A stretch of DNA of 64,000 bases from a virus (IMGVR_UViG_3300030104_007872:1-64000); one strand, 5' to 3'; positions 43,738-57,777 are shown, counted from the stretch's first letter. Notes: generated by a model not told the origin, from the letters alone. A program made the numbers and translations.

Positions 43738-44452
43738 TATAATCATTCCAAATTACAACAAGGAACCTTTTGTCATAAAGTGCCTTGAGTCTTGCTTAAA
43801 TCAGACTTATGAAAACTTAGGCGTCATTTTCATCGATAACGATAGTACTGATAATAGCTTGCAACTTGTTAAGGATTTTTCAAAAACGCACGACAGAGAT
43901 TTTATCATAGATGTGGCAGAAAATATCTATCCCCGCTGTTGGGAGGAATGTATAGAAAAGGCTGAACAATATTTAGATGGGGAATATTACACAATTGTTG
44001 GTTCAGATGATTACCTTGATGAGAATTATATCGCTAATTTTTGCGAGTGGATAAAAGAGCAAGAGGAGGAGGTCTTAGCCGTTCATTCAGACTTACTTTG
44101 GGTTGAGGATGGTAAAGATTTCAATTATACAACCTACAAGTATAGCGACATAGACGATTTAAAATTGAAATTAGTTCAAGGGTGCGCCATAAACAGCCCA
44201 ACAGTTTTTTATAGTAGGAAAATCACCGAGGATAAGAGCCTTAAGGCTAAACCAGAGGTATATAGCGGCGCAGCAGATTATGATTTTTATTGCCAATTGG
44301 TTGATAAGGGTATATTTATTCACAATATAGGCGACTGGATAGGCTATCATTACAACGTCAACAAATCTCAGGCAACGTGGGAGATGCATCTTGATCCTAT
44401 TAATTATACAAATGTAATTATTAAAAAGTATAAGGACAAGTGGAAAATTTGA
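43727..44452 (+). CDS. Glycosyltransferase 4 (GT2, GT-A fold)
   Basis: A 241-residue family 2 transferase: INIIIPNYNKEPFVIKCLES and LNQTYENLGVIFIDNDSTDN at the nucleotide site, and YYTIVGSDDYLDENY as the metal-binding acidic motif. YSGAADYDFYCQLVDKG matches the usual catalytic region. Inverting transfer to a growing glycan is typical of the family. Start overlaps the upstream gene. Confidence 0.82.
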   Translation: MRINIIIPNYNKEPFVIKCLESCLNQTYENLGVIFIDNDSTDNSLQLVKDFSKTHDRDFIIDVAENIYPRCWEECIEKAEQYLDGEYYTIVGSDDYLDENYIANFCEWIKEQEEEVLAVHSDLLWVEDGKDFNYTTYKYSDIDDLKLKLVQGCAINSPTVFYSRKITEDKSLKAKPEVYSGAADYDFYCQLVDKGIFIHNIGDWIGYHYNVNKSQATWEMHLDPINYTNVIIKKYKDKWKI

Positions 44453-45750
44453 CGCAAACATTAGATAGTGTAAGGGATTTTTTACGGAGCAAATCCCCCA
44501 AAAAATGGATAGCTGGCGAAGATTATGTACAATATGCGGGGCCAGTTTTTGACGAAGAAGAGATATTATCCGCTGTAGAAACACTGTTGGACGGCTGGCT
44601 CGTTTTGGGCAAGCGAGGTTTATCTTTCGAGAGGCAGTTTTGCAAGCTGTTGGGTAAGGATTATGGCGTATTGACTAATAGCGGAAGTAGTTCGAACCTA
44701 ATAATGATGGAGGCCCTAAAATCCAAAAGATTATACGGACTCCCAAATGACACAAAAGTTATTACTCCTATAGCGGGATTTCCCACGACGCTAAATCCAA
44801 TATTTCAGGTAGGGTTTAAGCCACTGTTTGTAGATATTGACATCGATACTCTTAATTTAAATTTAGAGCAAGTAGAAGAAAAGGCTAAAAAAGGCGCAAA
44901 AGTAATAACATTTGCACATGTTTTGGGCAATCCACCAAATATGGATCAGCTAATGCAGATAGTGAATGAGTATGATTTGATTTTACTTGAGGATTGTTGT
45001 GATGCGCTAGGTTCCAGCTACAGAGGGAACGATTTGGGTAGTTTTGGAGAATTTTCCACATGTTCTTTTTATCCAGCCCACCATATTACAATGGGAGAGG
45101 GTGGATTTGTCGCTTCAAAAACCTACAACCAGCAAATTGTCGCTAGAAGCTTAAGGGAATGGGGGCGCGGATGTTATTGCGTAGGGGAAAAGGCGGGTTT
45201 GTCTAAAACGGGGTGCTGCGGCAAAAGGTTTAGCAATTGGCTTCCAAGTTTACCAGATGAAGTTTTTGATCACAAATATGTCTATGACGAGATTGGCTAT
45301 AATTTAAAACCTATTGAAATTCAAGCGGCTATCGGTTTGCAGCAACTGAAAAAATTACCTTCAATTATCACACGCAGAAAAGAAAACCATAAAAAACTTT
45401 ATGATATTTTTGCGAAACATGAAGAGTATTTTATTTTGCCAGAGGCAACCGATGGGAGTGACCCTAGTTGGTTTGCTTTCGCCGTAACTCTTCGCGATGG
45501 CTGTAAATTCAAGAGAAATGAAATAGTGGACTTTTTTGAGTCGCATAAAATACAAACGCGCCCTTATTTTGCTGGAAATATCATGTTGCAACCCGCTTAT
45601 CGCGGGATTGTCAACGCCGAGGATGTTGTTAAAAAGTATCCCAATGCTCGCAAAGTAACCACCGACACCATGTTTCTAGGAACCAGCCCAGTAATTACTG
45701 ATGAACAAATTAGATATATTGAAGAAGTTTTATATAATTTCATTGGATGA
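44440..45750 (+). CDS. rfbH: RfbH-type 4-keto-6-deoxyhexose 3-dehydrase (E1)
   Basis: A 436-residue DegT-family protein, full length for the RfbH/E1 subgroup. The PLP lysine is replaced by His214 in SFYPAHHITMGEGGF, the hallmark of 3-dehydrases rather than aminotransferases. The iron-sulphur cysteines are present: Cys187, then 57 residues to Cys245, Cys247, and Cys259/260 after a longer gap than in Salmonella RfbH. In the known pathway it removes the C3 hydroxyl of CDP-4-keto-6-deoxyglucose with PMP and a [2Fe-2S] centre, en route to 3,6-dideoxyhexoses. The start is GTG at 44440 with AAGGA upstream. Here the nucleotide carrier is not certain because the adjacent dehydratase is RmlB-like. Confidence 0.85.
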   Translation: MENLTQTLDSVRDFLRSKSPKKWIAGEDYVQYAGPVFDEEEILSAVETLLDGWLVLGKRGLSFERQFCKLLGKDYGVLTNSGSSSNLIMMEALKSKRLYGLPNDTKVITPIAGFPTTLNPIFQVGFKPLFVDIDIDTLNLNLEQVEEKAKKGAKVITFAHVLGNPPNMDQLMQIVNEYDLILLEDCCDALGSSYRGNDLGSFGEFSTCSFYPAHHITMGEGGFVASKTYNQQIVARSLREWGRGCYCVGEKAGLSKTGCCGKRFSNWLPSLPDEVFDHKYVYDEIGYNLKPIEIQAAIGLQQLKKLPSIITRRKENHKKLYDIFAKHEEYFILPEATDGSDPSWFAFAVTLRDGCKFKRNEIVDFFESHKIQTRPYFAGNIMLQPAYRGIVNAEDVVKKYPNARKVTTDTMFLGTSPVITDEQIRYIEEVLYNFIG

Positions 45751-46694
45751 AGATAGTTTATGTCACAGGGTGCTTGGGTTTTATTGGATCTCACATTACG
45801 CGACACTGCCTGAATAAGGGGTGGTATGTTAAGGGTGTTGATAAGCTTACTTATGCTGCCAACAGGGAGTTTCTAAACGAATTTCAAAAATTCGAAAATT
45901 TTTCATTCCTACAAGAGGATATCAATGATCTAAAGTTTTTATATGAATGTGACTATGTTATTAATACCGCAGCGGAAACTCATGTGGGAAACAGTATCAT
46001 TAGTAGCGCTGATTTCATAAAATCAAACATTGATGGGGTCCATAATTTGCTAGAATTGATTAAGAATTATAGAATAGAAAACCTCAAAAAACCAACACTG
46101 TTACATCTTAGCACTGACGAAGTTTATGGAGATATTGCCAATGGAGATCACGGAGAGGAAGATCTTTTAAGGCCAAGTAACCCATATTCAGCGACTAAAG
46201 CTGCTGCCGACATGCTAATTTTAGCTTGGGCTCGCACTCACTCGATACCTTACCTTATTGTTAGACCCACGAACAACTACGGAATTGGTCAGTATGTAGA
46301 AAAATTAATTCCCAAGGCTTGTAAGTATTTAAAAATCAAGAAAAAAATACCCCTTCATAATGGGGGTGAACCCGTAAGGAATTGGTTACACGCCGATGAT
46401 ACCGCGAGTGCGATCACCACACTGATAGACAGTGGTTGTAAAAACGAAATATATAATATTTCTGGGCCTTTTGAGCAAAGTAATTATGAGACCTGCAAAA
46501 AAATCATTAAACTCTTCGACCCAAGTTTGAAAGTGGACGAGTGTTTAGATTTTTCCTATGATAGGGCAGGTCAAGATGTTCGATACGCTCTTAATGATTC
46601 CAAGCTACAGGGTATTGGCTGGTCCGCGTCAAAAAACTTTGATGAGGAATTACCAGCAATAGTTGACCACTATAAGCATAAATTTATCTGGTAA
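45747..46694 (+). CDS. NDP-glucose 4,6-dehydratase (RmlB-like)
   Basis: A 315-residue extended SDR enzyme: TGCLGFIGSH for NAD(P), LHLSTDEVYGD (the Thr-Asp-Glu of 4,6-dehydratases), NPYSATKAAAD (Tyr-x3-Lys), RPTNNYGIGQYVEKLIPK and RAGQDVRYALND. These are RmlB hallmarks, which act on dTDP-glucose; CDP-glucose dehydratases of the usual rfbG type look different. It would supply the 4-keto-6-deoxy substrate for the adjacent RfbH-like enzyme. Somewhat short at the C terminus. ATG overlaps the upstream TGA. Confidence 0.8.
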   Translation: MKIVYVTGCLGFIGSHITRHCLNKGWYVKGVDKLTYAANREFLNEFQKFENFSFLQEDINDLKFLYECDYVINTAAETHVGNSIISSADFIKSNIDGVHNLLELIKNYRIENLKKPTLLHLSTDEVYGDIANGDHGEEDLLRPSNPYSATKAAADMLILAWARTHSIPYLIVRPTNNYGIGQYVEKLIPKACKYLKIKKKIPLHNGGEPVRNWLHADDTASAITTLIDSGCKNEIYNISGPFEQSNYETCKKIIKLFDPSLKVDECLDFSYDRAGQDVRYALNDSKLQGIGWSASKNFDEELPAIVDHYKHKFIW

Positions 46695-47704
46695 TGAGAG
46701 CTTGTGATTACATAGCGACAGCATTGAGCAAAAGAGGCGTAAAGTATGTTTACGGCGTAATGGGCGGCGGTGCTGCGGGTTTAAATGATGGCTTCATTAA
46801 AAACAGCAATATACAATACATCGGCTTTCACCATGAGCAGGGGGCAAGTCATGCAGCTATAGGGGAAAGCAAGGTTACAAAAAAAATTGCAGTCGTTAAT
46901 CCGACCACGGGTTGTGGTGGCACTAATTGCGTAACTTCGGTCTTGGATGCGTGGCAAGACAGTATACCAGTGGTATTCATATCGGGCAATGTGCGCTTAA
47001 GTCATACCAGTTCACACATCAATAGAATAAACAATACATCAATTAGAAAATTTGGAATACAGGAACACGATATCGTTTCTACAGTAAAATCAATTACAAA
47101 GTATTCAAAATTTGTAGAGACAGCGGAGGATGTTCCATACGAACTTGAACGTGCTATTCATGAGGCGACAAGCGGAAGAATGGGGCCAGTGTGGCTAGAC
47201 ATTCCCAGTGATGTTCAGCATGGTGACATACCCGAAACCCACAAAACCTTTACTCCTGGAATTGATAACGTTTTAAATAAAGGTTTAGACTATGTAGAGC
47301 AAAGCATTAACAATTATGACAGGCCGTTAGTCCTTGCGGGGTATGGTGTGGTTTTAAGCGATTCTAAAAACGACTTTAAAAAGTTTATCGAACAAAACAA
47401 CGTACCTTTTGTTACTAGTTATTTAGGTATTGATATTCTTGGTTATGAACACCCACTAAACTTGGGAACTATAGGAATCAAGGGCAGTAGGGCGGGTAAT
47501 TTTGCGATTCAAAATTGTGATTGCCTAATAGTGATGGGTTGCTCTCTCAACAGTTCGCATTTAGGCTATGATGAAAATTTGTTTTCTCCGAAGTCCCACA
47601 AAATAATCATTGACATAGATTCAGATGAACACGCAAAAAACAAAGTTAAGATAGACAAATTAATAAAAGCAGATTTGCGCGAATTTTTTAATCATGAAAG
47701 CTGA
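46694..47704 (+). CDS. ThDP-dependent enzyme, N-terminal subunit (acetolactate-synthase-like)
   Basis: A 336-residue protein with the PYR domain (HHEQGASHAAIGESK, with the cofactor-activating Glu48) and the central domain of the acetolactate-synthase family (RPLVLAGYGV, FVTSYLGIDILGYEHPLNLG, GSRAGNFAIQNCDCLIVMG). It ends at the inter-domain linker (LREFFNHES), and the PP domain is encoded by the next gene. In O-antigen clusters such enzymes add a two-carbon unit to 4-keto-3,6-dideoxysugars (the YerE reaction of yersiniose), so a branched sugar is an attractive role. Confidence 0.75.
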   Translation: MRACDYIATALSKRGVKYVYGVMGGGAAGLNDGFIKNSNIQYIGFHHEQGASHAAIGESKVTKKIAVVNPTTGCGGTNCVTSVLDAWQDSIPVVFISGNVRLSHTSSHINRINNTSIRKFGIQEHDIVSTVKSITKYSKFVETAEDVPYELERAIHEATSGRMGPVWLDIPSDVQHGDIPETHKTFTPGIDNVLNKGLDYVEQSINNYDRPLVLAGYGVVLSDSKNDFKKFIEQNNVPFVTSYLGIDILGYEHPLNLGTIGIKGSRAGNFAIQNCDCLIVMGCSLNSSHLGYDENLFSPKSHKIIIDIDSDEHAKNKVKIDKLIKADLREFFNHES

Positions 47705-48443
47705 GTGGATTGATAGATGCAAGAGGTGGAAAAGTAAGTGGCCAATCTTCAAAGATTCGTTTATTGACGATTCGAACGGCGTTAATCTTTATAATTTTAT
47801 TGAGATTTTAAATTCCGTAATAACAAAAAACGAAACAATAGTCAGTGATGCTGGATCGGCCATATATGTGCCCTGCCAGAATTTAAAATTAAAAGAGGGT
47901 CAAGACTTCATCATATCTGGGGCTCAAGCCGATATGGGTTTTGCATTGCCAGCTTCCATTGGTGTATACTTGGCGGATTCTACGAAAAATGTATTAGTTG
48001 TAACGGGCGACGGAAGCTTCAATACCAATATTCAGGAGTTAGCTGTGATTAGAAGCCTAAACGTACCAATAAAAATCTTTGTCTGGAACAATAATGGTTA
48101 TTTGAGCATTAGAAATACACAAAGCAAGTTTTATGAGGGTCGCGTCTATGGGACAGACAAGGATACTGGGCTCTGGTTTCCAGAATTAGAATCAGTGGCA
48201 AAGACTTATGAATTTGACTTCGTAAAATTATCAACGAACGTGGAAGTGAGAGATAACTTACTTAAAATTATTAATAATAAAAACCCTATGATATGTGAGG
48301 TTATTTGCGACCCCAATCAAGATATTACACCAACCTTAATGCTAAAAGAGGACGAGGCAACGGGTGAAAAAATTCAGTGCGGTTTGGATGACATGTTTCC
48401 ATTTTTGTCACAAGCAGAACTAGATAACGAAAAATACAATTAA
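47694..48443 (+). CDS. ThDP-dependent enzyme, C-terminal subunit
   Basis: A 249-residue PP domain: AQADMGFALPASIGVYLAD, the ThDP/Mg site TGDGSFNTNIQELA (from Gly105) and NNNGYLSIRNTQ (from 132). It completes the enzyme of the previous gene, which it overlaps by 11 bases in a different frame. The split falls in the linker, so the two can act as alpha/beta subunits; a recent split by a frameshift is the alternative. Confidence 0.78.
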   Translation: MKAEWIDRCKRWKSKWPIFKDSFIDDSNGVNLYNFIEILNSVITKNETIVSDAGSAIYVPCQNLKLKEGQDFIISGAQADMGFALPASIGVYLADSTKNVLVVTGDGSFNTNIQELAVIRSLNVPIKIFVWNNNGYLSIRNTQSKFYEGRVYGTDKDTGLWFPELESVAKTYEFDFVKLSTNVEVRDNLLKIINNKNPMICEVICDPNQDITPTLMLKEDEATGEKIQCGLDDMFPFLSQAELDNEKYN

Positions 48444-48445
48444 TT

Positions 48446-49375
48446 ATGAAAAAAAATATTTTACAATTTAATAAAATGAAAGCCAAGGGGGAGCCAATAA
48501 CGTGGGTAACCGCCTACAGTTATCCGTTTGCTGCTGCCGCAGAGAGGGCTGGAATCGAAATGATATTAGTTGGCGATTCAGGAGGTATGGTCGAGCTTGG
48601 CTACGAAACGACAAATCCTGTCACAATGGATGAAATGATTACATTCGCTAAGGCAGCAAGAAAGGGCGCCCCAAATACTTTTGTCGTTGGCGATATGCCT
48701 CAAAGTTCGTATGAAATTTCTGATGAGGAGGCGATCAAAAATGCGATGAGGTTTGTAAAAGAGGCGGGGGTGGACGCCGTTAAGCTTGAAGGTGGAGATA
48801 GAGTGGTTAGCAGAATAAAAGCTATTGTTGATGCGGGCATATTGGTTATAGGCCACCTTGGCTTAACCCCCCAAAGCACTGTTTCATTTGGCGGCTACAA
48901 GGTTCAGGGTAAGTCTGTCGAAAGCTTTGAAGAAATGGTGGATGATTGTCGCAGTATTAGCGATGCAGGGTGCTGCATGATATTACTAGAGGCTATTCCA
49001 AGTTCTGTCGGCGGTCAAATTTCAAAAGCGTTCGATATCCCAATCATGGGTATTGGAGCGGGAGATCTGGTAGATGGGCAGCTTTTGATCATGCACGATT
49101 TAACAGGGTTCTACACAGATTTTCGACCTTGGTTTGCAAAATGCTACATCCCGCAAGTTATTGAAAAATATGCGAATGAATTAAGCAATTATAAAGACAT
49201 TAAAAAACACGGTATTGACACGAGGATGGACGGGCTGAATGTCCTTGTCGAGTATGCGCTCAGCGACTATCACCACGAGGTAAAGAACAAGGAGTATCCC
49301 CCCTCAGAGTATATTTATCCGATTAAAGATGAAGATTTGGAAAAGCTGAAAAATTCCAGATACTGGGTGGACTAG
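48446..49375 (+). CDS. PanB-like hydroxymethyltransferase
   Basis: A 309-residue TIM-barrel protein of the ketopantoate hydroxymethyltransferase family. The full active-site set is recognisable: Asp44 (VGDSGG), Asp83 (VGDMP), Lys113-Glu115 (VKLEGG), His137 (GHLGLTPQS) and Glu182 (LLEAIP). The family adds a hydroxymethyl group from methylene-tetrahydrofolate to a 2-keto acid. PanB has no clear use for pantothenate here, and the C-terminal ~45 residues (from about 265) are an unusual extension. Sitting between a ThDP enzyme and sugar epimerases, it may build a branched acyl or sugar unit. Confidence 0.78.
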   Translation: MKKNILQFNKMKAKGEPITWVTAYSYPFAAAAERAGIEMILVGDSGGMVELGYETTNPVTMDEMITFAKAARKGAPNTFVVGDMPQSSYEISDEEAIKNAMRFVKEAGVDAVKLEGGDRVVSRIKAIVDAGILVIGHLGLTPQSTVSFGGYKVQGKSVESFEEMVDDCRSISDAGCCMILLEAIPSSVGGQISKAFDIPIMGIGAGDLVDGQLLIMHDLTGFYTDFRPWFAKCYIPQVIEKYANELSNYKDIKKHGIDTRMDGLNVLVEYALSDYHHEVKNKEYPPSEYIYPIKDEDLEKLKNSRYWVD

Positions 49376-49380
49376 ATTTA

Positions 49381-50163
49381 ATGAAGAAGAGTATATTGAT
49401 CACTGGCGCCAATGGCTATGTTGCGCGAGCGCTACAGAAGGGCCTGAGCGCTTATGACCTAACGACGATTCAGCGCACGGATTTTGACCTAACCGACCAA
49501 AAGGCCACCGAAGATTTCTTTAAAAATAAATTTTTCGATGTTGTCATTCATACGGCGATTAGGGGTGGTAGGAGATTACAGCAAGACGACAACGAAGTTT
49601 TTGATGGTAATGTTCAAATGTTTTTAAATTTATTAAAAAACAAAAATAGTTTTGGAAGATTCATAAATTTAGGTTCGGGCGCTGAGGTAAAAGAAACTTC
49701 CACTCCTTATGGATTTAGCAAGAGCGTTATTAGCAACAGGCTGTTAAGTGAACCTAATTTTCATAACGTGCGAATATACGGCATTTTTGACGCTAATGAA
49801 CTGTCCACTAGGTTTATAAAAGCCAACATTACAAATTACCTCAATAAACAGCCAATGAAGGTCCTTCAAAACAAAAAAATGGATTTCTTCTACATGCCCG
49901 ATTTAATTAAACTTATTGATTTTTTAGTGGCTGGTAAAAAGCCCTTGAAAGTAATTGAGTGCTGTTATGACGAAGCCTTTTCTTTATCGTGGATTGCAAA
50001 TTTTATCAATACATTAGGCTCTCACAAGGTAGATATAAAATTAGCTAGCAGTGACACAGACGCCGATTATGTTGGGTCCAATTCTGCTGAAAATTTACCG
50101 ATTGAATTTACAGGCTTAATCAAGGGAATTAGAGAAACTTTTAATATACTTAAAAACGAATGA
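49381..50163 (+). CDS. NAD-dependent epimerase/dehydratase (short)
   Basis: A 260-residue SDR-type enzyme: ITGANGYVARALQKGL for the cofactor, VVIHTAIRGGRRL, LGSGAEVKE and YGFSKSVISN (Tyr-x3-Lys). The last part is shorter than in classical epimerases. The most likely job is a 4-reduction or epimerisation of a nucleotide sugar; the RfbH-route would need such a reductase. Overlaps the next gene by 4 bases. Confidence 0.68.
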   Translation: MKKSILITGANGYVARALQKGLSAYDLTTIQRTDFDLTDQKATEDFFKNKFFDVVIHTAIRGGRRLQQDDNEVFDGNVQMFLNLLKNKNSFGRFINLGSGAEVKETSTPYGFSKSVISNRLLSEPNFHNVRIYGIFDANELSTRFIKANITNYLNKQPMKVLQNKKMDFFYMPDLIKLIDFLVAGKKPLKVIECCYDEAFSLSWIANFINTLGSHKVDIKLASSDTDADYVGSNSAENLPIEFTGLIKGIRETFNILKNE

Positions 50164-51248
50164 AACTTTCTTATTCAGACATAATAGATTCGCGTAAGGG
50201 TGAGGCGGCAGTGGTTGTTGGTGCGGGGCCATCATTAAATAACAACAAAAAACAAATTATCGATGCTCAAAAAGATGGTTTGATAAAAATTTGCGTTAAC
50301 GAGTGGTTTCGCCTTTTTGAAAACAACTCAAAGCCAGATTATTTAGTTTTGGCTAGTGGGCATCACACAGATTCCATCACCGCTCACGGACCTATCGCAA
50401 ATGAGTTAAAGTTTCCTATTTTTTACGCTAATTCCACAGACGCGACCCCTCAGTCATGGGTGGAAGAGAATATGAAGGCGGATTGGTTCGGCTTTGATCA
50501 GCGGCATTGGCAAGGCAAAAATTGCCGTCATCTTATTGGTGAAATTGCCCACTGGATTGCTGAGGAATATCACAGACTAACGGGCGAATATCCACTACCA
50601 AATTCTATTAAGGAGGGCTCCACGGATGGATATCCCCTCTTTCCTATTGACATGCATTCGCTTAATGCGGTCACTGGGGGTTCCTCCAGCTTCTTCAGAG
50701 GTGCTACTTCGCCCAAGGCTGAGGAATTAAAAGAGATGATACAAAGGGCGCCCGAGGGCTTTTCATTACAGAATTTGAAAATGTATGGCAATAATGGAAT
50801 AATGTGGGATGGGCGCTGGCCATATGGCGGATTATGTGAGGCTGTGCGGTGGGAGTTTGACGCTACCGCAGGATGGAGGGCGGTTCCAAGATTTCCATGC
50901 ACTAAAGTGGGTGATGCTTCAACGTTAACGGTGCAGGAAACCCTGCAAAATACATCAGGATTTGATTGTCATTATAGCACGGGGGATACGGTAATAGTTC
51001 ACGCTCTTGCATTTGCTATTTTGATGGGTTGTAATCCCATCTATGTAACAGGCATGGATTTGGATTATCGTGTGGGCTACGCTAGTTCTCAAGCAGCCCC
51101 ACTCAATAACGATTGGCAAAGGTTTGCTAGGAATTTGATTAATGATTTGAAAATCCTTAATGAGAGCGCTATAATGAGGGGTATCGAAATCATCAATCTT
51201 CAAAAAGATGCTTGGTACGGCCAAATTAAACACGGAGAACTTAAATGA
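50160..51248 (+). CDS. DUF115/Maf-type protein (probable nonulosonic acid transferase)
   Basis: A 362-residue protein of the DUF115 / motility-accessory-factor type: VVVGAGPSLNNNKKQIIDA at the N terminus and IYVTGMDLDY near the C terminus. In flagellated bacteria Maf proteins attach pseudaminic or legionaminic acid to flagellin serines and threonines. Its place right before neuB supports a transferase for the nonulosonic acid made by NeuB/NeuA. A pterin-kinase-like fold also belongs to this superfamily, so substrate is uncertain. Confidence 0.7.
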   Translation: MKLSYSDIIDSRKGEAAVVVGAGPSLNNNKKQIIDAQKDGLIKICVNEWFRLFENNSKPDYLVLASGHHTDSITAHGPIANELKFPIFYANSTDATPQSWVEENMKADWFGFDQRHWQGKNCRHLIGEIAHWIAEEYHRLTGEYPLPNSIKEGSTDGYPLFPIDMHSLNAVTGGSSSFFRGATSPKAEELKEMIQRAPEGFSLQNLKMYGNNGIMWDGRWPYGGLCEAVRWEFDATAGWRAVPRFPCTKVGDASTLTVQETLQNTSGFDCHYSTGDTVIVHALAFAILMGCNPIYVTGMDLDYRVGYASSQAAPLNNDWQRFARNLINDLKILNESAIMRGIEIINLQKDAWYGQIKHGELK

Positions 51249-52093
51249 ATAAAGAATGTCCCACCCATACATATGTAATCGCAGAAATAGGTATTAACCA
51301 CAACGGTGATGTAGATATAGCGAAAGAACTTATCGAGCAAGCTTGCTCAGCGGGTTGCGATGCCGTTAAATTTCAAAAAAGAACCATTGATCTGGTTTAC
51401 TCACAAGAAGAGTTAGATTCGCCACGGGAATCTCCATTTGGAACCACGACCAGACAGCAAAAAGAGGGTATAGAGTTGCACATTTCCGAATTGCAAACAT
51501 TAGAAGATTACGCCTCAAGCCTTGGTCTTGACTTTATTGTTTCATGTTGGGATGGGAATAGCTTAGATGAGGTAAATAATAATCTTAATGTTCGTTACCA
51601 CAAAATTGCGTCAGCAATGTTGACCGATGTCATGTTTTTGGAGAAAGTAAATAATACAGGCAAGCCTGTTATCCTCTCAGTGGGCATGTCTACTGATGAG
51701 GAAATAGACAAGGCTTTAAATTTACTGGATAACGTCGAATATATATTGGCTTGCACCAGCACTTATCCAACAAAAGCCGAAGAAGTAAACCTTCTTCACG
51801 TTTCTACGTTAAAAAATCAATTTGAAGACTTAGGCGTTGCGGTAAAAGTTGGTTTTTCAAATCATTACAACGGTGCAGATGCGTGTGTGGGCGCTGTCGC
51901 CTTAGGCGCCGAGTGTATTGAGTTTCACATAACACGAGACAGGACGATGTATGGTTCGGATCAACCTGCGTCTATTGAGGATGCCGCGTCTCTTGTTGCG
52001 GGTATTCGAAATATGGAGATGATGATTGGAGATGGAATTAAAAAAGTCTATGATTCCGAAAAACCTATAGCCGCTAAATTAAGGAAAAATTAA
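51245..52093 (+). CDS. neuB: Nonulosonic acid synthase (NeuB-like)
   Basis: A 282-residue TIM-barrel synthase: YVIAEIGINHNGDVDIAKEL (with catalytic Glu14), GCDAVKFQKRTID, IASAMLTDV, GKPVILSVGMSTDEEIDKAL, CTSTYPTKAEEVNLL, VGFSNHYNGADACVGAVALG, EFHITRDRTMYGSDQPASI. It condenses PEP with a hexose derivative to form sialic, legionaminic, pseudaminic or similar acids. The C-terminal antifreeze-like (SAF) domain of standard NeuB is absent, so it is the short type. ATG overlaps the stop of the DUF115 gene. Confidence 0.88.
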   Translation: MNKECPTHTYVIAEIGINHNGDVDIAKELIEQACSAGCDAVKFQKRTIDLVYSQEELDSPRESPFGTTTRQQKEGIELHISELQTLEDYASSLGLDFIVSCWDGNSLDEVNNNLNVRYHKIASAMLTDVMFLEKVNNTGKPVILSVGMSTDEEIDKALNLLDNVEYILACTSTYPTKAEEVNLLHVSTLKNQFEDLGVAVKVGFSNHYNGADACVGAVALGAECIEFHITRDRTMYGSDQPASIEDAASLVAGIRNMEMMIGDGIKKVYDSEKPIAAKLRKN

Positions 52094-52097
52094 AACG

Positions 52098-52535
52098 ATG
52101 AGAGTAACAAATATCGACACCCTTTCCGCGTATTTTGATAGATTAATAACAGAAAACATAAAGTTATTTTTTTTCAAAAAGGACCAAGAACAGGAAAAGG
52201 TTGATCATCAAAAAGAAGTAATTTCTGATATTAAAGGTAAAATCTCCACTCTAATTAAAGAGTGCTTAGATACTGGTAAATACGAATATCTTTCAGAAAA
52301 ACGAACATTTAACGAAAACTCTATAGTAGAAAATTTAGAGGAATTAGTTTTTAATGATATTAATATAGGCGAATCGGATAGAGAAAGATTAAAACAAGTA
52401 CAATCTGAGACTCCAAGCTTAGATAAGTTCATAGTTAATGAAAAGAGACTTCGTAAGGCTAATGAGGGAAGGGCGCGTAATAAAAATGAAATTGACAACC
52501 AATTTCAAAAAATAATCGAAGAGCCTCAGACATGA
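52098..52535 (+). CDS. Hypothetical island protein (145 aa)
   Basis: A helical, charged protein (MRVTNIDTLSAYFDRLITEN, IKLFFFKKDQEQEKVDHQKE) with no signal or membrane segment. It lies between neuB and an epimerase and may be an accessory of the sugar pathway; I recall similar small proteins only as unknowns in surface-sugar clusters. Overlaps the next gene by 4 bases. Confidence 0.45.
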   Translation: MRVTNIDTLSAYFDRLITENIKLFFFKKDQEQEKVDHQKEVISDIKGKISTLIKECLDTGKYEYLSEKRTFNENSIVENLEELVFNDINIGESDRERLKQVQSETPSLDKFIVNEKRLRKANEGRARNKNEIDNQFQKIIEEPQT

Positions 52536-53521
52536 AGGTCTTAATAACAGGGGTGGCAGGGCTACTGGGCTCTAATTTTGCTAAATATTTACTATCCAAG
52601 GGTTACACCGTTATAGGAATTGACGACCTGTCAGGTGGTTATAGAGAGTCTGTGCATGATGAGGTGGATTTTCACCAAATAAACCTAAGTGATCATAAAC
52701 GTTTGGAAGAATGTTTCCTTAAAACACAACCCGACTATGTTTATCATTTTGCTGCGTATGCAGCAGAGGGTTTAAGCCCATACATCAGGAGGCACAACTA
52801 CACCAACAATCTGGTTTGCTCCGCTAATGTTATTAATGCTTGTGTTAATTTTAACGTAAAAAAACTCATATTCACGTCATCAATGGCGGTATACGGCAGA
52901 GGCAATCCACCATTTACTGAAGATCAGCGCCCTACACCTGAAGACCCGTATGGTGTTGCTAAATACGCCGTAGAGATGGACTTGAAGATGGCGCATAAGC
53001 AGTTTGGCTTAAATTATTCCATTGTGCGACCCCACAATGTCATAGGTGTGGGTCAAAACATTTGGGATCGCTATCGCAATGTTATTGGAATATGGATTCG
53101 AAAATGCATGAGTGGAGAACCGATTAGCATTTTTGGCGACGGAACTCAAGTTCGCGCTTTTTCTGATATTAAATTTTACATGAAACCCTTTGAAAAATTA
53201 ATGAAAAATTATGAGGGTGAAATTTTTAATATTGGCGCTGATAAAGATTGGACTATAAATGATGCCGCAAATCTAGTGGCAGATGTGGCAAAAGACTGTG
53301 GGTATCAACCTTCGATTACACATTTACCGCCTCGAAACGAGGTTCACACCGCTTACTGCGATCACGCAAAAGCTAAGGAGTTTTTAGGCTTTATTGACGA
53401 AACCAATTTACAACAAACCATCAAAGATATGTTTGCTTGGGCGGCTGCACAAAAAGATCATGCCGTAACATACTTTGATTACGAAATAGAAAAAAATCTT
53501 TATACTTTTTGGAAAAAATGA
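52532..53521 (+). CDS. NAD-dependent sugar epimerase/dehydratase (GalE-like)
   Basis: A 329-residue extended SDR: ITGVAGLLGSNFAKYLLSKG, FTSSMAVYGRGNPPFTEDQ (Ser-Ser-Met then Tyr), DPYGVAKYAVEMDL (Tyr-x3-Lys), VRPHNVIGVGQNIWDRYRNV. UDP-hexose 4-epimerase-type activity is the best guess; UDP-HexNAc as precursor for the nonulosonic acid would fit the place. Ends in ATGATG overlap with the next gene. Confidence 0.75.
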   Translation: MKVLITGVAGLLGSNFAKYLLSKGYTVIGIDDLSGGYRESVHDEVDFHQINLSDHKRLEECFLKTQPDYVYHFAAYAAEGLSPYIRRHNYTNNLVCSANVINACVNFNVKKLIFTSSMAVYGRGNPPFTEDQRPTPEDPYGVAKYAVEMDLKMAHKQFGLNYSIVRPHNVIGVGQNIWDRYRNVIGIWIRKCMSGEPISIFGDGTQVRAFSDIKFYMKPFEKLMKNYEGEIFNIGADKDWTINDAANLVADVAKDCGYQPSITHLPPRNEVHTAYCDHAKAKEFLGFIDETNLQQTIKDMFAWAAAQKDHAVTYFDYEIEKNLYTFWKK

Positions 53522-54558
53522 TGAAATTCGGTATTTGGCGACATGAAAATTCCATAGGAAATTCGGTGGAACACACGATGGGTCTAGCGGTTTATTTAAC
53601 AGTCAATAAGATTGATCCCGCCAATGTGGAAGTTTATGTCGAGAACGATTGGCAGAAAGATTTCGTTCTGTGCATACAGGGTATTCAGGAAAAAAATGTA
53701 AAGTTTTTTGAGCGCCCCGTTGAAATGGACACTAAAGATCCGTATTTTGATGACATTCACATGCCAAACGTTTACGGACCAACCGCTTTCCCGCTTAGTT
53801 ACGAGTGCGATTGGAATTATCTAGATAAACATAAAGAGCTTAACGTTTCACTTAAGTTTGACGATAGCGATTACGAAAATAAATTTAATTTACCTAAAGA
53901 TGCAGTTGTTCTCTTTTGTAGGGAACACGGAACGTGGTGGAAACGTGAGGATGGTAGTGAATTTGAGCCCGAGAGATTTGTGGACCCCGAAACCTTCCAT
54001 GATTTAGCTCACTATTACGCTAATAAAGGCTATAAAGTGATTAAGATTGGTGACGCCAAACAAAAAAGGTTGCGGGGAAATTATACACCTTTTGAATTCG
54101 GAGAGAGATACGAACACGAGAACCTGATCGATTTTACCAAATATCTTGACGAAGACGGCAACCCTAGATGGACTCTGAAAGATTATCTGTTTATTCTACA
54201 AAATTGTAAGGTTTTTATCTCCTGTGATGCTGGAATTTGGCCAATGGCCGCAGCAATGAATAAAAATCTTGTTTTTTGCAATGTGATGTGCATACTTTAC
54301 CCTATAACCCTCAAGCCACTTTCGGATGGAGCAAAGCTTTCGGATGATGGTCTGACCATAGAGTTTACGAAGCCCAATATGGTGACGTGGATGCCACGGA
54401 AAACTACTAGGGTCTTACTGAAACATGCAACCATAGACACGGATAAGCTTAAAAGAGTTGAAGAGGATAGCGGAACGTATAAGATTTTCTCCACTGATGT
54501 GATTTTTAGCGATAACACCTTCACGGAAATACTCACAGCAACAGAAACGTTAATTTAG
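53518..54558 (+). CDS. Putative glycosyltransferase, GT9-like outline
   Basis: A protein of about 346 residues starting at one of two tandem ATGs (53518 or 53521). The centre has LFCREHGTWWKREDG, and the C-terminal half has LKDYLFILQNCKVFISCDAG then IWPMAAAMNKNLVFCN, resembling the heptosyltransferase-like donor-site pattern (a Gly/Pro-containing loop after SxxG). No firm family. Transfer of a sugar to the glycan fits the place. Confidence 0.45.
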   Translation: MMKFGIWRHENSIGNSVEHTMGLAVYLTVNKIDPANVEVYVENDWQKDFVLCIQGIQEKNVKFFERPVEMDTKDPYFDDIHMPNVYGPTAFPLSYECDWNYLDKHKELNVSLKFDDSDYENKFNLPKDAVVLFCREHGTWWKREDGSEFEPERFVDPETFHDLAHYYANKGYKVIKIGDAKQKRLRGNYTPFEFGERYEHENLIDFTKYLDEDGNPRWTLKDYLFILQNCKVFISCDAGIWPMAAAMNKNLVFCNVMCILYPITLKPLSDGAKLSDDGLTIEFTKPNMVTWMPRKTTRVLLKHATIDTDKLKRVEEDSGTYKIFSTDVIFSDNTFTEILTATETLI

Positions 54559-54559
54559 C

Positions 54560-55237
54560 ATGAATATCGCTGCCTTTATACCTGCGCGAGGTGGTAGCAA
54601 AGCAATTCCGCGCAAAAATATTATAGAATTTGCAGGGCAACCACTATTAAGTTGGTCAATCGAACAGGCTCAAGCTTCCGAATACATAAATAACGTTTAC
54701 GTTTCTTCTGATGATGATGAAATTTTGCGGATTTCTGAAAATTATGGTGCAAAGTCAGTTAAGCGTCCCGATGATATTTCTGGCGACTTAGCTTCAAGTG
54801 AATCCGCTTTACTGCACTTTACAAGTCACCTTAAAAATGTTGATCTCGTAGTCTTCCTTCAGGCCACGTCGCCGCTACGCGAACCCTGTGATCTGGACGG
54901 GGCAATAGAGCACTTTTTAATGCATAATTACGATTCCCTGTTTTCAGCAAATGAATTGGGAGACATGTGCATCTGGAGAAAAAAAAACAATAAGCTTAAA
55001 AGCTATAATTATAATTATAAAAATCGCCAGCGTCGGCAAGATCTTAATCAGGAACAACTGGTGGAAAATGGTTCGTTTTATTTATTTACGCCAAAATGCT
55101 TGCGAAAATATAAAAATCGTTTAGGCGGAAAAATAGGATATTTTTTAATGGAAAATTGGAAAATTCACGAGGTTGACACGCCAGAGGATCTAGTGTTATG
55201 TGAGTTTATGTTTAAGCAGAAGGGATTGAATAAGTGA
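54560..55237 (+). CDS. neuA: CMP-nonulosonic acid cytidylyltransferase (NeuA-like)
   Basis: A 225-residue CMP-sugar synthetase: AFIPARGGSKAIPRKNI (the nucleotide loop), LLSWSIEQAQAS, YVSSDDDEIL, KRPDDISGDLASSESALLH, VVFLQATSPLRE, ENGSFYLFTPK and IHEVDTPEDL. It activates the acid made by NeuB with CTP for transfer. ATG lies one base after the upstream stop codon. The exact acid cannot be read. Confidence 0.88.
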   Translation: MNIAAFIPARGGSKAIPRKNIIEFAGQPLLSWSIEQAQASEYINNVYVSSDDDEILRISENYGAKSVKRPDDISGDLASSESALLHFTSHLKNVDLVVFLQATSPLREPCDLDGAIEHFLMHNYDSLFSANELGDMCIWRKKNNKLKSYNYNYKNRQRRQDLNQEQLVENGSFYLFTPKCLRKYKNRLGGKIGYFLMENWKIHEVDTPEDLVLCEFMFKQKGLNK

Positions 55238-56208
55238 ATGAGTCAGTAGAGAGAGTGGTTTATATGAATGGGGAGTTTATTCCCGAGTCGCAGGCTAAGG
55301 TATCTATATATGATTCTGCCCTCATGTTTGGCGATATGGTTTTTGAAATGACCCGCTCGTTTAATAAGAAGCAATTCAAATTACGGGAACATTTGGAAAG
55401 GTTATACGCATCGATGAAATATATTCACCTCGATTACCCAATGAGTATTGAGGAGATGGAAGATGCAGTTTACAAAACTATCGAAGTTAATGAGCCCGCT
55501 TTCGGAAAGGACGATGAGCACCGTATTATGATTGATGTCACACGGGGACTACTGGGAATATACGAGGGGGTTAACGGATTACGGTCTGGGCCAAATGTAA
55601 TTATAGCGGATTTTCCGCTAAAGTGGACGGTGAGTTCTATGGGCCATTTATTTGATACGGGTATCAATGCGGTAATAACCTCACAAAGAGCTATTCCTGC
55701 TTCTCTTTTAGAGCCCAAAATAAAAAATAGAAGTAGGATACATTACCTTATGGCTAACATAGAGGCGTCAAAGATGAAGGGTCAAGATAACTGGGCTCTT
55801 TTGCTTGATCCCGATGGATTCGTGGCCGAGGGCACGGGGGATAATTTCTTCATAGTTAAAAACGGACAGATAGTTACTCCTGAACCCCGTAATATTTTGC
55901 GCGGCATAAGCAGAGATTATATATTTGAATTGTCGCAGCAGCTTAATATTAAGTGTATTGAAAAAAACATTGAGCCATATGATGTAATGATGGCTGACGA
56001 AGCTTTTATGACGGGCACACCATTTTGCCTCCTTCCTGTGACAAGCTTAAATTCTGTTAAAATTGGTGACGGAGCCATGGGATCACTTACGCGCTTGCTA
56101 TTGGATCGCTGGAGCGCCAATGTAGGCTTAGACATAGAAAGGCAGATTAAAGATTATTCTTGTCCATCCAATTCATCATCTCCGTCTCCATACATTTTTA
56201 AAAAATGA
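55234..56208 (+). CDS. Class IV aminotransferase (branched-chain/D-amino-acid type)
   Basis: A 324-residue PLP fold-type IV enzyme: YDSALMFGDMVFEMTRSF, KIKNRSRIHYLMANIEASK (lysine region), DGFVAEGTGDNFFIVKNGQI, NILRGISRDYI and DEAFMTGTPFCLLPVTSLN. It transfers an amino group, probably between a branched-chain or D-amino acid and a keto acid. In this island it could act on the product of the ThDP/PanB pair. Its last ~20 residues are Ser/Pro-rich. Overlaps neuA and the following isomerase gene by 4 bases. Confidence 0.78.
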   Translation: MNESVERVVYMNGEFIPESQAKVSIYDSALMFGDMVFEMTRSFNKKQFKLREHLERLYASMKYIHLDYPMSIEEMEDAVYKTIEVNEPAFGKDDEHRIMIDVTRGLLGIYEGVNGLRSGPNVIIADFPLKWTVSSMGHLFDTGINAVITSQRAIPASLLEPKIKNRSRIHYLMANIEASKMKGQDNWALLLDPDGFVAEGTGDNFFIVKNGQIVTPEPRNILRGISRDYIFELSQQLNIKCIEKNIEPYDVMMADEAFMTGTPFCLLPVTSLNSVKIGDGAMGSLTRLLLDRWSANVGLDIERQIKDYSCPSNSSSPSPYIFKK

Positions 56209-56978
56209 AGTTGGGAATAATTCAAGGTAGATTGTCTGAACCAATCGAGGGCTTCCAAGAGTGTCCAGAAAATTGGGCTAGAGAGTTCGAGTTATTGGTA
56301 GGTTTTAAATTGAATCATATAGAATGGATTGTTACAGCGGAGAAATTTAATACCAACCCCCTTTTCGCTGAAAATTTACGGAATTATCCAATTTCTTCTG
56401 TTTGCGCTGATTTTATGGTTAGCGAAAAGTTTTCGGATGGCGATTATTTAAAGCGTTTTTTGCGGCCCACTTGCGAAGCAGTTTTGCGTCATGGGATCAA
56501 ACATTTGACCATCCCCCTCCTAGAGGAAAGTGATGTGAGCAACTCAAAAGCAAGAGAGATATTTGCGAGTAATTTTGCACCTTATGTAGAAGAGTTTAGC
56601 GATATTACTTTTTTAATAGAAGCGGAACTTCATCAAGATAAACTAAAGGATCTTCTTGAGATCAGCCCAACCTTAGGTGTGACTTATGATACGGGCAATA
56701 TTACTTCTTGTGGTTTCAGTCACGAAAACTATATTAAGGAACTTAAAGACAGAATCAAACAAGTTCACATAAAGGATAGGACTATAAATCCAGTGGAAAC
56801 CGTTCCACCCACACGGGGACGCACTGATTTTAATTTAATTTTTAAAAAGCTTAAAGAGATAAATTTTGACGGTCCATATACACTTCAAACGGCCCGCGAA
56901 AAAACGGGAAATGAACTTGAAACAATTCAAAAACACGCAACAATAATACGAAATTTATATTATGAAGAATTTTTTTAA
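56205..56978 (+). CDS. Sugar-phosphate isomerase/epimerase (xylose-isomerase-like TIM barrel)
   Basis: A 257-residue TIM-barrel protein: LGIIQGRLSEPIEGFQECPE, FLIEAELHQDKL (metal Glu), LGVTYDTGNITSCGFSHENY (Asp), IKQVHIKDRT (His-Lys-Asp-Arg) and FDGPYTLQTAREK. Typical of the AP-endonuclease-2 / sugar-isomerase superfamily with a divalent-metal site. Similar enzymes stand in surface-sugar and legionaminic-type clusters. Substrate unknown. Confidence 0.72.
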   Translation: MKLGIIQGRLSEPIEGFQECPENWAREFELLVGFKLNHIEWIVTAEKFNTNPLFAENLRNYPISSVCADFMVSEKFSDGDYLKRFLRPTCEAVLRHGIKHLTIPLLEESDVSNSKAREIFASNFAPYVEEFSDITFLIEAELHQDKLKDLLEISPTLGVTYDTGNITSCGFSHENYIKELKDRIKQVHIKDRTINPVETVPPTRGRTDFNLIFKKLKEINFDGPYTLQTAREKTGNELETIQKHATIIRNLYYEEFF

Positions 56979-57777
56979 CCTAAAGGGCAAAACCGCCTTA
57001 ATCACAGGCGGGGGTGGGCTTTTAGGGCCAAAACATGCTGAAGCGATTATTGAGCAGGGTGGCCGTGTTATTTTAGCTGATTGGCACCAAGATCGAGCCG
57101 CAAAAAAAGCCGAGCAACTCAACAGAGAACATGGAGAATCCGTTGCTGATTGGCATCACATGGACGTTACCGATAAATTGTCCATCGAAAGGGTTGTCGA
57201 TAAATATAATAAAATAGATATCCTAATAAATAATGCAGCTAAAGATCCAAAAGTTAAAAAAGATGCGGGGCTTACGGTTGAATCGAGGTTTGAAACCATG
57301 ACTGAGAAATATTGGCAAGAGGGGGTAGATGCAGCCTTAAATGGAACGTTTTTGTGCTCACAGGTTGTTGCAAACTTAATGTTGAAGTGTGGCGGTGGAG
57401 TGATTCTTAATATTGCTTCTGATTTAGGTGTTATAGCTCCCGATCAGCGCATTTACGAAAAAGAAGGGTTAGATGAGGATCAACAAAATGTTAAACCAAT
57501 TACTTATTCTGCGGCAAAATGGGCCATTATAGGTATGACTAAATATTTGGCGGTTTATTTCGCTAAGAAAAATATACGAGTCAATTCACTTAGCCCCACA
57601 GCAGTCTACAATAATCATCCAGAAGATTTTGTGGAAAAGTTGACGAATTTAATTCCAATGGGTAGGATGTCAGATATCAATGAATACAAAGGGGCAATTG
57701 CTTTTTTGTGCTCTGACGCAAGCTCTTATATGACAGGAGAAAATTTGGTAATCGATGGTGGTAAGAGCGTATGGTAA
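56962..57777 (+). CDS. Short-chain dehydrogenase/reductase
   Basis: A 271-residue classical SDR: ALITGGGGLLGPKHAEAI, DILINNAAKDP, ILNIASDLGVI (catalytic Ser), ITYSAAKWAIIGMTKYLAVY (Tyr-x3-Lys) and YMTGENLVIDGGKSVW. It would reduce or oxidise a sugar intermediate. Paired with the isomerase upstream, which it overlaps by 17 bases. Confidence 0.82.
   Translation: MKNFFNLKGKTALITGGGGLLGPKHAEAIIEQGGRVILADWHQDRAAKKAEQLNREHGESVADWHHMDVTDKLSIERVVDKYNKIDILINNAAKDPKVKKDAGLTVESRFETMTEKYWQEGVDAALNGTFLCSQVVANLMLKCGGGVILNIASDLGVIAPDQRIYEKEGLDEDQQNVKPITYSAAKWAIIGMTKYLAVYFAKKNIRVNSLSPTAVYNNHPEDFVEKLTNLIPMGRMSDINEYKGAIAFLCSDASSYMTGENLVIDGGKSVW

Follow-up and report, generated by a model that had tools for sequence, protein, structure and literature searches.

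The stretch of DNA analyzed here, referred to as the window, covers 64,000 nt of a 78,084-base virus record, and positions are counted from its first letter. The record encodes a terminase, a tape measure protein, a UvsX-type recombinase, and the alpha subunit of DNA polymerase III. A set of sugar genes is found on the plus strand of the window in close succession: an RfbH-like 3-dehydrase (44440..45750) is followed by an RmlB-like NDP-glucose 4,6-dehydratase (45747..46694), the N- and C-terminal chains of a YerE-like ThDP enzyme (46694..47704 and 47694..48443), a Q-type PanB-like hydroxymethyltransferase (48446..49375), and a protein of the SDR/epimerase family (49381..50163). The coordinates and strand of all ORFs named in an initial annotation of this DNA proved correct. 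At the 3' end of the record, outside the window (G000:C1:75891-78084, corresponding to L232:13891-16084), PSCyt2/PSD1 (DUF1549/DUF1553) and DUF1501 genes are located. Such genes are typical of Planctomycetes and Verrucomicrobia; this end may represent host DNA at the edge of a prophage and thereby hint at the host.

The same gene order, from RfbH over the RmlB-like protein, both ThDP chains, and PanB to the SDR, is found again in contigs L088/L089 and L101 and is thus beyond chance. Many other viral contigs contain these genes together, and PanB adjoins a ThDP gene in two bacterial genomes as well, which supports the initial view of RfbH, the RmlB-like protein, the ThDP pair, and PanB as one sugar cassette and removes the doubt that they might not occur together elsewhere. 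The accompanying claim that no described phage carries the set holds for the cultured-phage collection searched, in which the full set was not found; among uncultivated viral contigs the set is common. PanB and ThDP matches in the cultured-phage collection all stay below 60% identity and mostly belong to unannotated or bacterial-looking records. Relatives of RfbH at about 41% identity are present in cultured Synechococcus phages (e.g. MK799832.1 and MK016663.1), and no cyanophages are among the ThDP matches listed for this collection. In one contig with an otherwise conserved cassette, a 526-aa ORF to which no family was assigned is placed between the ThDP gene and PanB (L007:5115-6695).

The first protein of the cassette belongs to the RfbH/E1 group. 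It reaches 456 bits with the NCBIfam RfbH equivalog model (cut-off 423); among solved structures, the CDP-4-keto-6-deoxyglucose-3-dehydrase E1 is its nearest match (3BCX/3BB8, E=1e-100). The lysine of the PLP site is replaced by histidine (SFYPAHHIT), the four cysteines of the 2Fe-2S cluster align with those of 3BCX, and the hallmark motif is present in 82 of the 84 viral RfbH proteins. A reductase partner for RfbH was not identified, which counts against the pathway proposed below. The RmlB-like protein is nearest to dTDP-glucose 4,6-dehydratase, with 291 bits for TIGR01181 (below the cut-off of 365), and obtains only 57 bits with the CDP-glucose dehydratase model. The RfbF cytidylyltransferase (TIGR02623) is absent from the window's record and exceeds the cut-off in one of 22 viral records, which may be fragments. 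Nor does the window's record hold a glucose-1-phosphate nucleotidyltransferase (PF00483), a further point against the pathway. Since neither enzyme is present in the record, NDP-glucose would have to be supplied by the host, and the identity of the sugar nucleotide is uncertain.

Kinship and split of the ThDP enzyme

The N-terminal chain contains the PYR and middle domains (PF02776 and PF00205), and the C-terminal chain the PP domain with its GDG motif (PF02775). In a comparison with solved structures, the best match of the N half is JanthE at 181.7 bits, ahead of 5AHK (167.6), which we take to be the PpYerE named in the review cited below, and of the next acetolactate synthase (ALS; 132); the C half scores 137.8 bits with JanthE, 67 with ALS, and 56.6 with 5AHK. 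JanthE (8RPH) is the YerE-like enzyme of Janthinobacterium sp. HH01 (PMC12188165). It is the best solved relative of both halves, although it differs from the window's enzyme in being a single chain with CDG in place of GDG, and shares 32% identity with the joined halves. The fused viral relative in L002 scores 386.5 with JanthE versus 223.8 in the same comparison, and the predicted fold of another fused relative, in L118, fits JanthE best (TM 0.92, compared with 0.77-0.86 for AHAS entries). At the position equated with the AHAS arginine that serves the acceptor keto acid, Arg276 in E. coli AHAS II, the window carries serine, whereas all five ilvB references carry arginine. With TIGR00118 the N half reaches 201.6 bits against a cut-off of 538 that applies to whole proteins, the halves being scored separately; a full-length bacterial relative likewise falls below it. 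As in the window, the ThDP gene is linked to RfbH in the majority of viral loci and in many bacterial ones.

By kinship, these scores and the modeled fold support the assignment of the pair as a YerE-like carboligase, as the initial annotation had proposed, with carboligation as the predicted activity. The reservation that the pair might be nearer to acetolactate synthases is not borne out, since JanthE scores higher for both halves, and an ordinary acetolactate synthase was rejected on these scores, the L118 fold, and the serine in place of arginine. The pathway proposed below is weakened by the ThDP proteins of L094 and L098, which group near ilvB in the first tree. Viral ThDP enzymes with and without a linked PanB are not told apart by their pocket residues, which therefore show no change of donor and likewise count against that pathway.

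The break lies between the middle and PP domains, where the two chains overlap by 11 nt in different frames. Some viral relatives are fused, such as the 590-aa protein of L002, and others are divided at the identical place. One clade (support 1.0) unites 58 distinct viral sequences, 53 of them split and five fused; the first tree, in which this clade was defined, contained two AHAS references that were dropped from the later trees, L210 because of ambiguous bases and L212 because a wrong ORF had been picked. In 36 of the 54 tabulated split pairs the overlap amounts to 4 nt (ATGA). Because 53 viral sequences share the break and so many pairs show the short overlap, a sequencing error or frameshift was rejected; judged from these sequences, the split is a genuine viral trait. 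Its origin within this viral lineage was probably a single event, and one bacterial split (L029) stands apart from the viral clade.

The PanB-like protein and its neighbors

Both profile and fold place the fifth reading frame of the cassette in the PanB family: it matches Pantoate_transf, reaches 264 bits with TIGR00222 (cut-off 207.6), and has 1M3U as its best fold match, with the metal-site and catalytic residues conserved as aligned. It differs from 1M3U in being about 45 aa longer, in belonging to a separate clade, in its link to ThDP genes rather than panC, and in Gln86 and Asn57, which replace Phe/Tyr and a Leu-class residue, respectively, beside the metal-site loops. This Q-type (TTNPVTM, DMPQ) forms a clade of its own (support 100/100), and its viral sister clade, characterized by DMPYMSY, carries Tyr and Ile at the two positions. 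In a set of 96 distinct viral PanB proteins, which is defined by the scan pattern (PanB-seeded scans plus the window) and is no census of viral PanB, 94 are encoded less than 3 kb from a ThDP gene, mostly within 30 bases; the other two are canonical DMPF types. Q-type PanB also stands next to a YerE-like ThDP gene in one Elusimicrobia genome (L008) and one Neomarinimicrobiota genome (L033). A phosphonate pathway, in which PEP mutase, a member of a barrel superfamily related to PanB, acts with phosphonopyruvate decarboxylase, was considered and rejected, since both profile and fold identify the protein as PanB and a middle domain is present in the ThDP enzyme.

The second clade was observed in 69 contigs (L249-L317), each copy adjoining a ThDP gene. 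A gene matching RfbH is in reach in 49 of them, with a number of weak matches that may represent other members of the aminotransferase-fold family. The remaining 20 lack such a match, and in some contigs the PanB-ThDP pair lies among other sugar genes without RfbH. This absence counts against the pathway proposed below, as do the ThDP partners of this clade, which fall into two types, those of one type (31/60) having arginine at the AHAS position. In Sporomusa acidovorans (G003, the genome of L009) six PanB-like matches were noticed, including L182, L200, L204, L205, and L206; four of these proteins cluster closely together and are akin to the viral clades.

PanB is one of several enzymes found beside the ThDP gene. 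Across 174 ThDP loci, which include overlapping fetches of one contig and share ancestry, so that the numbers are descriptive and carry no significance test, PanB occurs in 25, an HpcH/HpaI aldolase in 20, an aminotransferase in 36, none of these in 93, and two together in none. The HpcH/HpaI aldolases (PF03328), a family that includes YfaU, adjoin the ThDP gene in, for example, L118 and L120, with an Fe-S protein nearby. This companion of the aldolase (L118:11813-12988 and L120:12540-13703) has 4Fe-4S motifs and weak LdpA/DUF561 matches. In L132 and many other contigs a class I/II aminotransferase is located between RfbH and the ThDP gene. On a later ThDP tree, seven module changes were counted for PanB and 21 over all states, numbers that are indicative only, the tree being quick and its branches long. 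As PanB, the aldolase, and the aminotransferase exclude each other, each of them would supply an alpha-keto-acid donor to the ThDP enzyme.

A role of the Q-type PanB in pantothenate synthesis is not indicated by its surroundings. In 32 PanB-bearing viral records, which may be fragments, panC, ilvC, and ilvD never exceed the cut-off (the single ilvC match reaches 14.9 bits); in two bacterial genomes (G001 and G002), panC is directly adjoined by a second PanB, whereas the Q-type copy adjoins the ThDP gene. The Q-type is therefore probably not the pantothenate enzyme, and its sequence context makes the preparation of a side chain more likely than that of a vitamin. Counted against the donor role are two further Elusimicrobia genomes (G092 and G128) in which the Q-type is the sole PanB and lies away from ThDP genes; no panC match was found in these genomes, whose completeness is not established, and YerE-like relatives are encoded elsewhere in them. 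Auxiliary metabolism, in which the viral ThDP enzyme and PanB would raise valine, pantothenate, and CoA synthesis of the host, agrees with profiles that annotate the proteins as IlvB-like and PanB and with a viral survey that lists viral 'ilvB' under pantothenate and CoA synthesis (PMC8226683). It is nevertheless highly improbable, given the lack of panC, ilvC, and ilvD in these records, a ThDP pair nearer to JanthE than to ALS, neighboring genes devoted to sugars, and the separate housekeeping PanB in G001 and G002.

A proposed donor pathway for a branched sugar

A close described counterpart is the synthesis of yersiniose A in Yersinia pseudotuberculosis, where an RfbH-type dehydrase and the ThDP carboligase YerE create a carbon branch at C-4 (PMC12247030). 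The window differs from it in its viral nature, the two-chain ThDP enzyme, the additional PanB, an RmlB-like protein instead of CDP-glucose dehydratase, and the lack of a cytidylyltransferase. ErwE, which acts in the erwiniose pathway of Pectobacterium atrosepticum, prefers hydroxylated donors, e.g. 4-hydroxy-2-oxobutanoate, whereas YerE prefers pyruvate (PMC12247030); it is by this donor preference that ErwE is compared with the window's enzyme. The panB-encoded enzyme is reported to be promiscuous with 2-keto-4-hydroxybutyrate, there catalyzing its cleavage; the same paper describes the formation of this compound from homoserine by an evolved aminotransferase (PMC6966089). YfaU forms it from pyruvate plus formaldehyde (PMC7918591). 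From the chemistry of the three slot enzymes, each of which can make or modify alpha-keto acids, the donor preference of ErwE, and the promiscuity of PanB, we infer that PanB would synthesize the donor.

Gene content, family kinship, the conserved linkage, and the mutual exclusion of the slot enzymes make it fairly probable that the virus encodes a pathway for a C-4-branched 3,6-dideoxyhexose, with PanB providing a hydroxylated donor before ligation. In this scheme, whose substrates, step order, and product are inferred, the RmlB-like enzyme would dehydrate NDP-glucose of the host and RfbH would take off the C-3 hydroxyl. PanB would act ahead of ligation and hydroxymethylate an alpha-keto acid with methylene-tetrahydrofolate, in the simplest case converting pyruvate into 4-hydroxy-2-oxobutanoate, and a hydroxylated three-carbon branch would result in place of an acetyl group. 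The two-chain YerE-like enzyme would then decarboxylate the alpha-keto acid and attach what is left of it, as an acyl group, to the ketone at C-4. Finally, the SDR (PF01370), a candidate ketoreductase of the branch by its position and encoded after the ThDP gene or PanB in many viral loci, would probably reduce the new side-chain ketone. A broader reading, offered only tentatively, is that viruses possess modular C-branching pathways with an exchangeable donor enzyme, that this PanB subfamily makes 4-hydroxy-2-oxobutanoate or a relative, and that undescribed branched sugars are formed.

The initial annotation had arranged the last steps differently: the ThDP enzyme would use pyruvate to place an acetyl group on the 4-keto sugar, and PanB would hydroxymethylate this group afterwards. 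The same genes and linkage, together with the position of PanB mostly between the ThDP and SDR genes, speak for this order. Nonetheless, PanB retains the family residues around the metal and the keto acid, while a sugar acetyl lacks the carboxylate, and related loci fill the slot with enzymes acting on free keto or amino acids. As the exchange with HpcH aldolases and aminotransferases points to donor synthesis before ligation, hydroxymethylation of the finished keto sugar is quite unlikely and that part of the annotation probably wrong. The donor might also be another one, with PanB using 2-oxobutanoate or converting ketoisovalerate into ketopantoate, and a larger branch would follow. The substrate is not readable from sequence, the changes at Gln86/Asn57 and the Tyr/Ile of the second clade allow for varying substrates, and the substrate range of JanthE includes several longer keto acids (PMC12188165). 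Nothing speaks directly against such a donor, which we regard as unlikely; 4-hydroxy-2-oxobutanoate is the documented donor of a YerE-like enzyme that PanB reportedly handles.

The type of pathway is already known. As far as searched, what is new is the donor step by PanB, the ThDP enzyme in two chains, and the broad distribution among viruses: PanB is not described as a donor source of carboligases in the literature searched, and no earlier report of the viral set was found in a search that covered few subscription journals. If the proposed donor pathway is true, viral 'ilvB' and 'panB' genes are likely misread as amino acid and vitamin genes, PanB gains a role beyond pantothenate synthesis, and new branched sugars are predicted, which raises the question of why phages rebuild rare surface sugars.

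The suggestion that the class IV aminotransferase at 55234 takes part in the ThDP/PanB pathway found no support. For 15 of 16 other viral copies of this gene, NeuB is matched no more than 8 kb away, and PanB is in reach only in L234/L235. Together with NeuB, a PseF-like cytidylyltransferase, a TIM-barrel protein, and an SDR, the aminotransferase forms a second sugar set in the window (51245-57777), much of which recurs in the 16 other viral contigs found via this gene.
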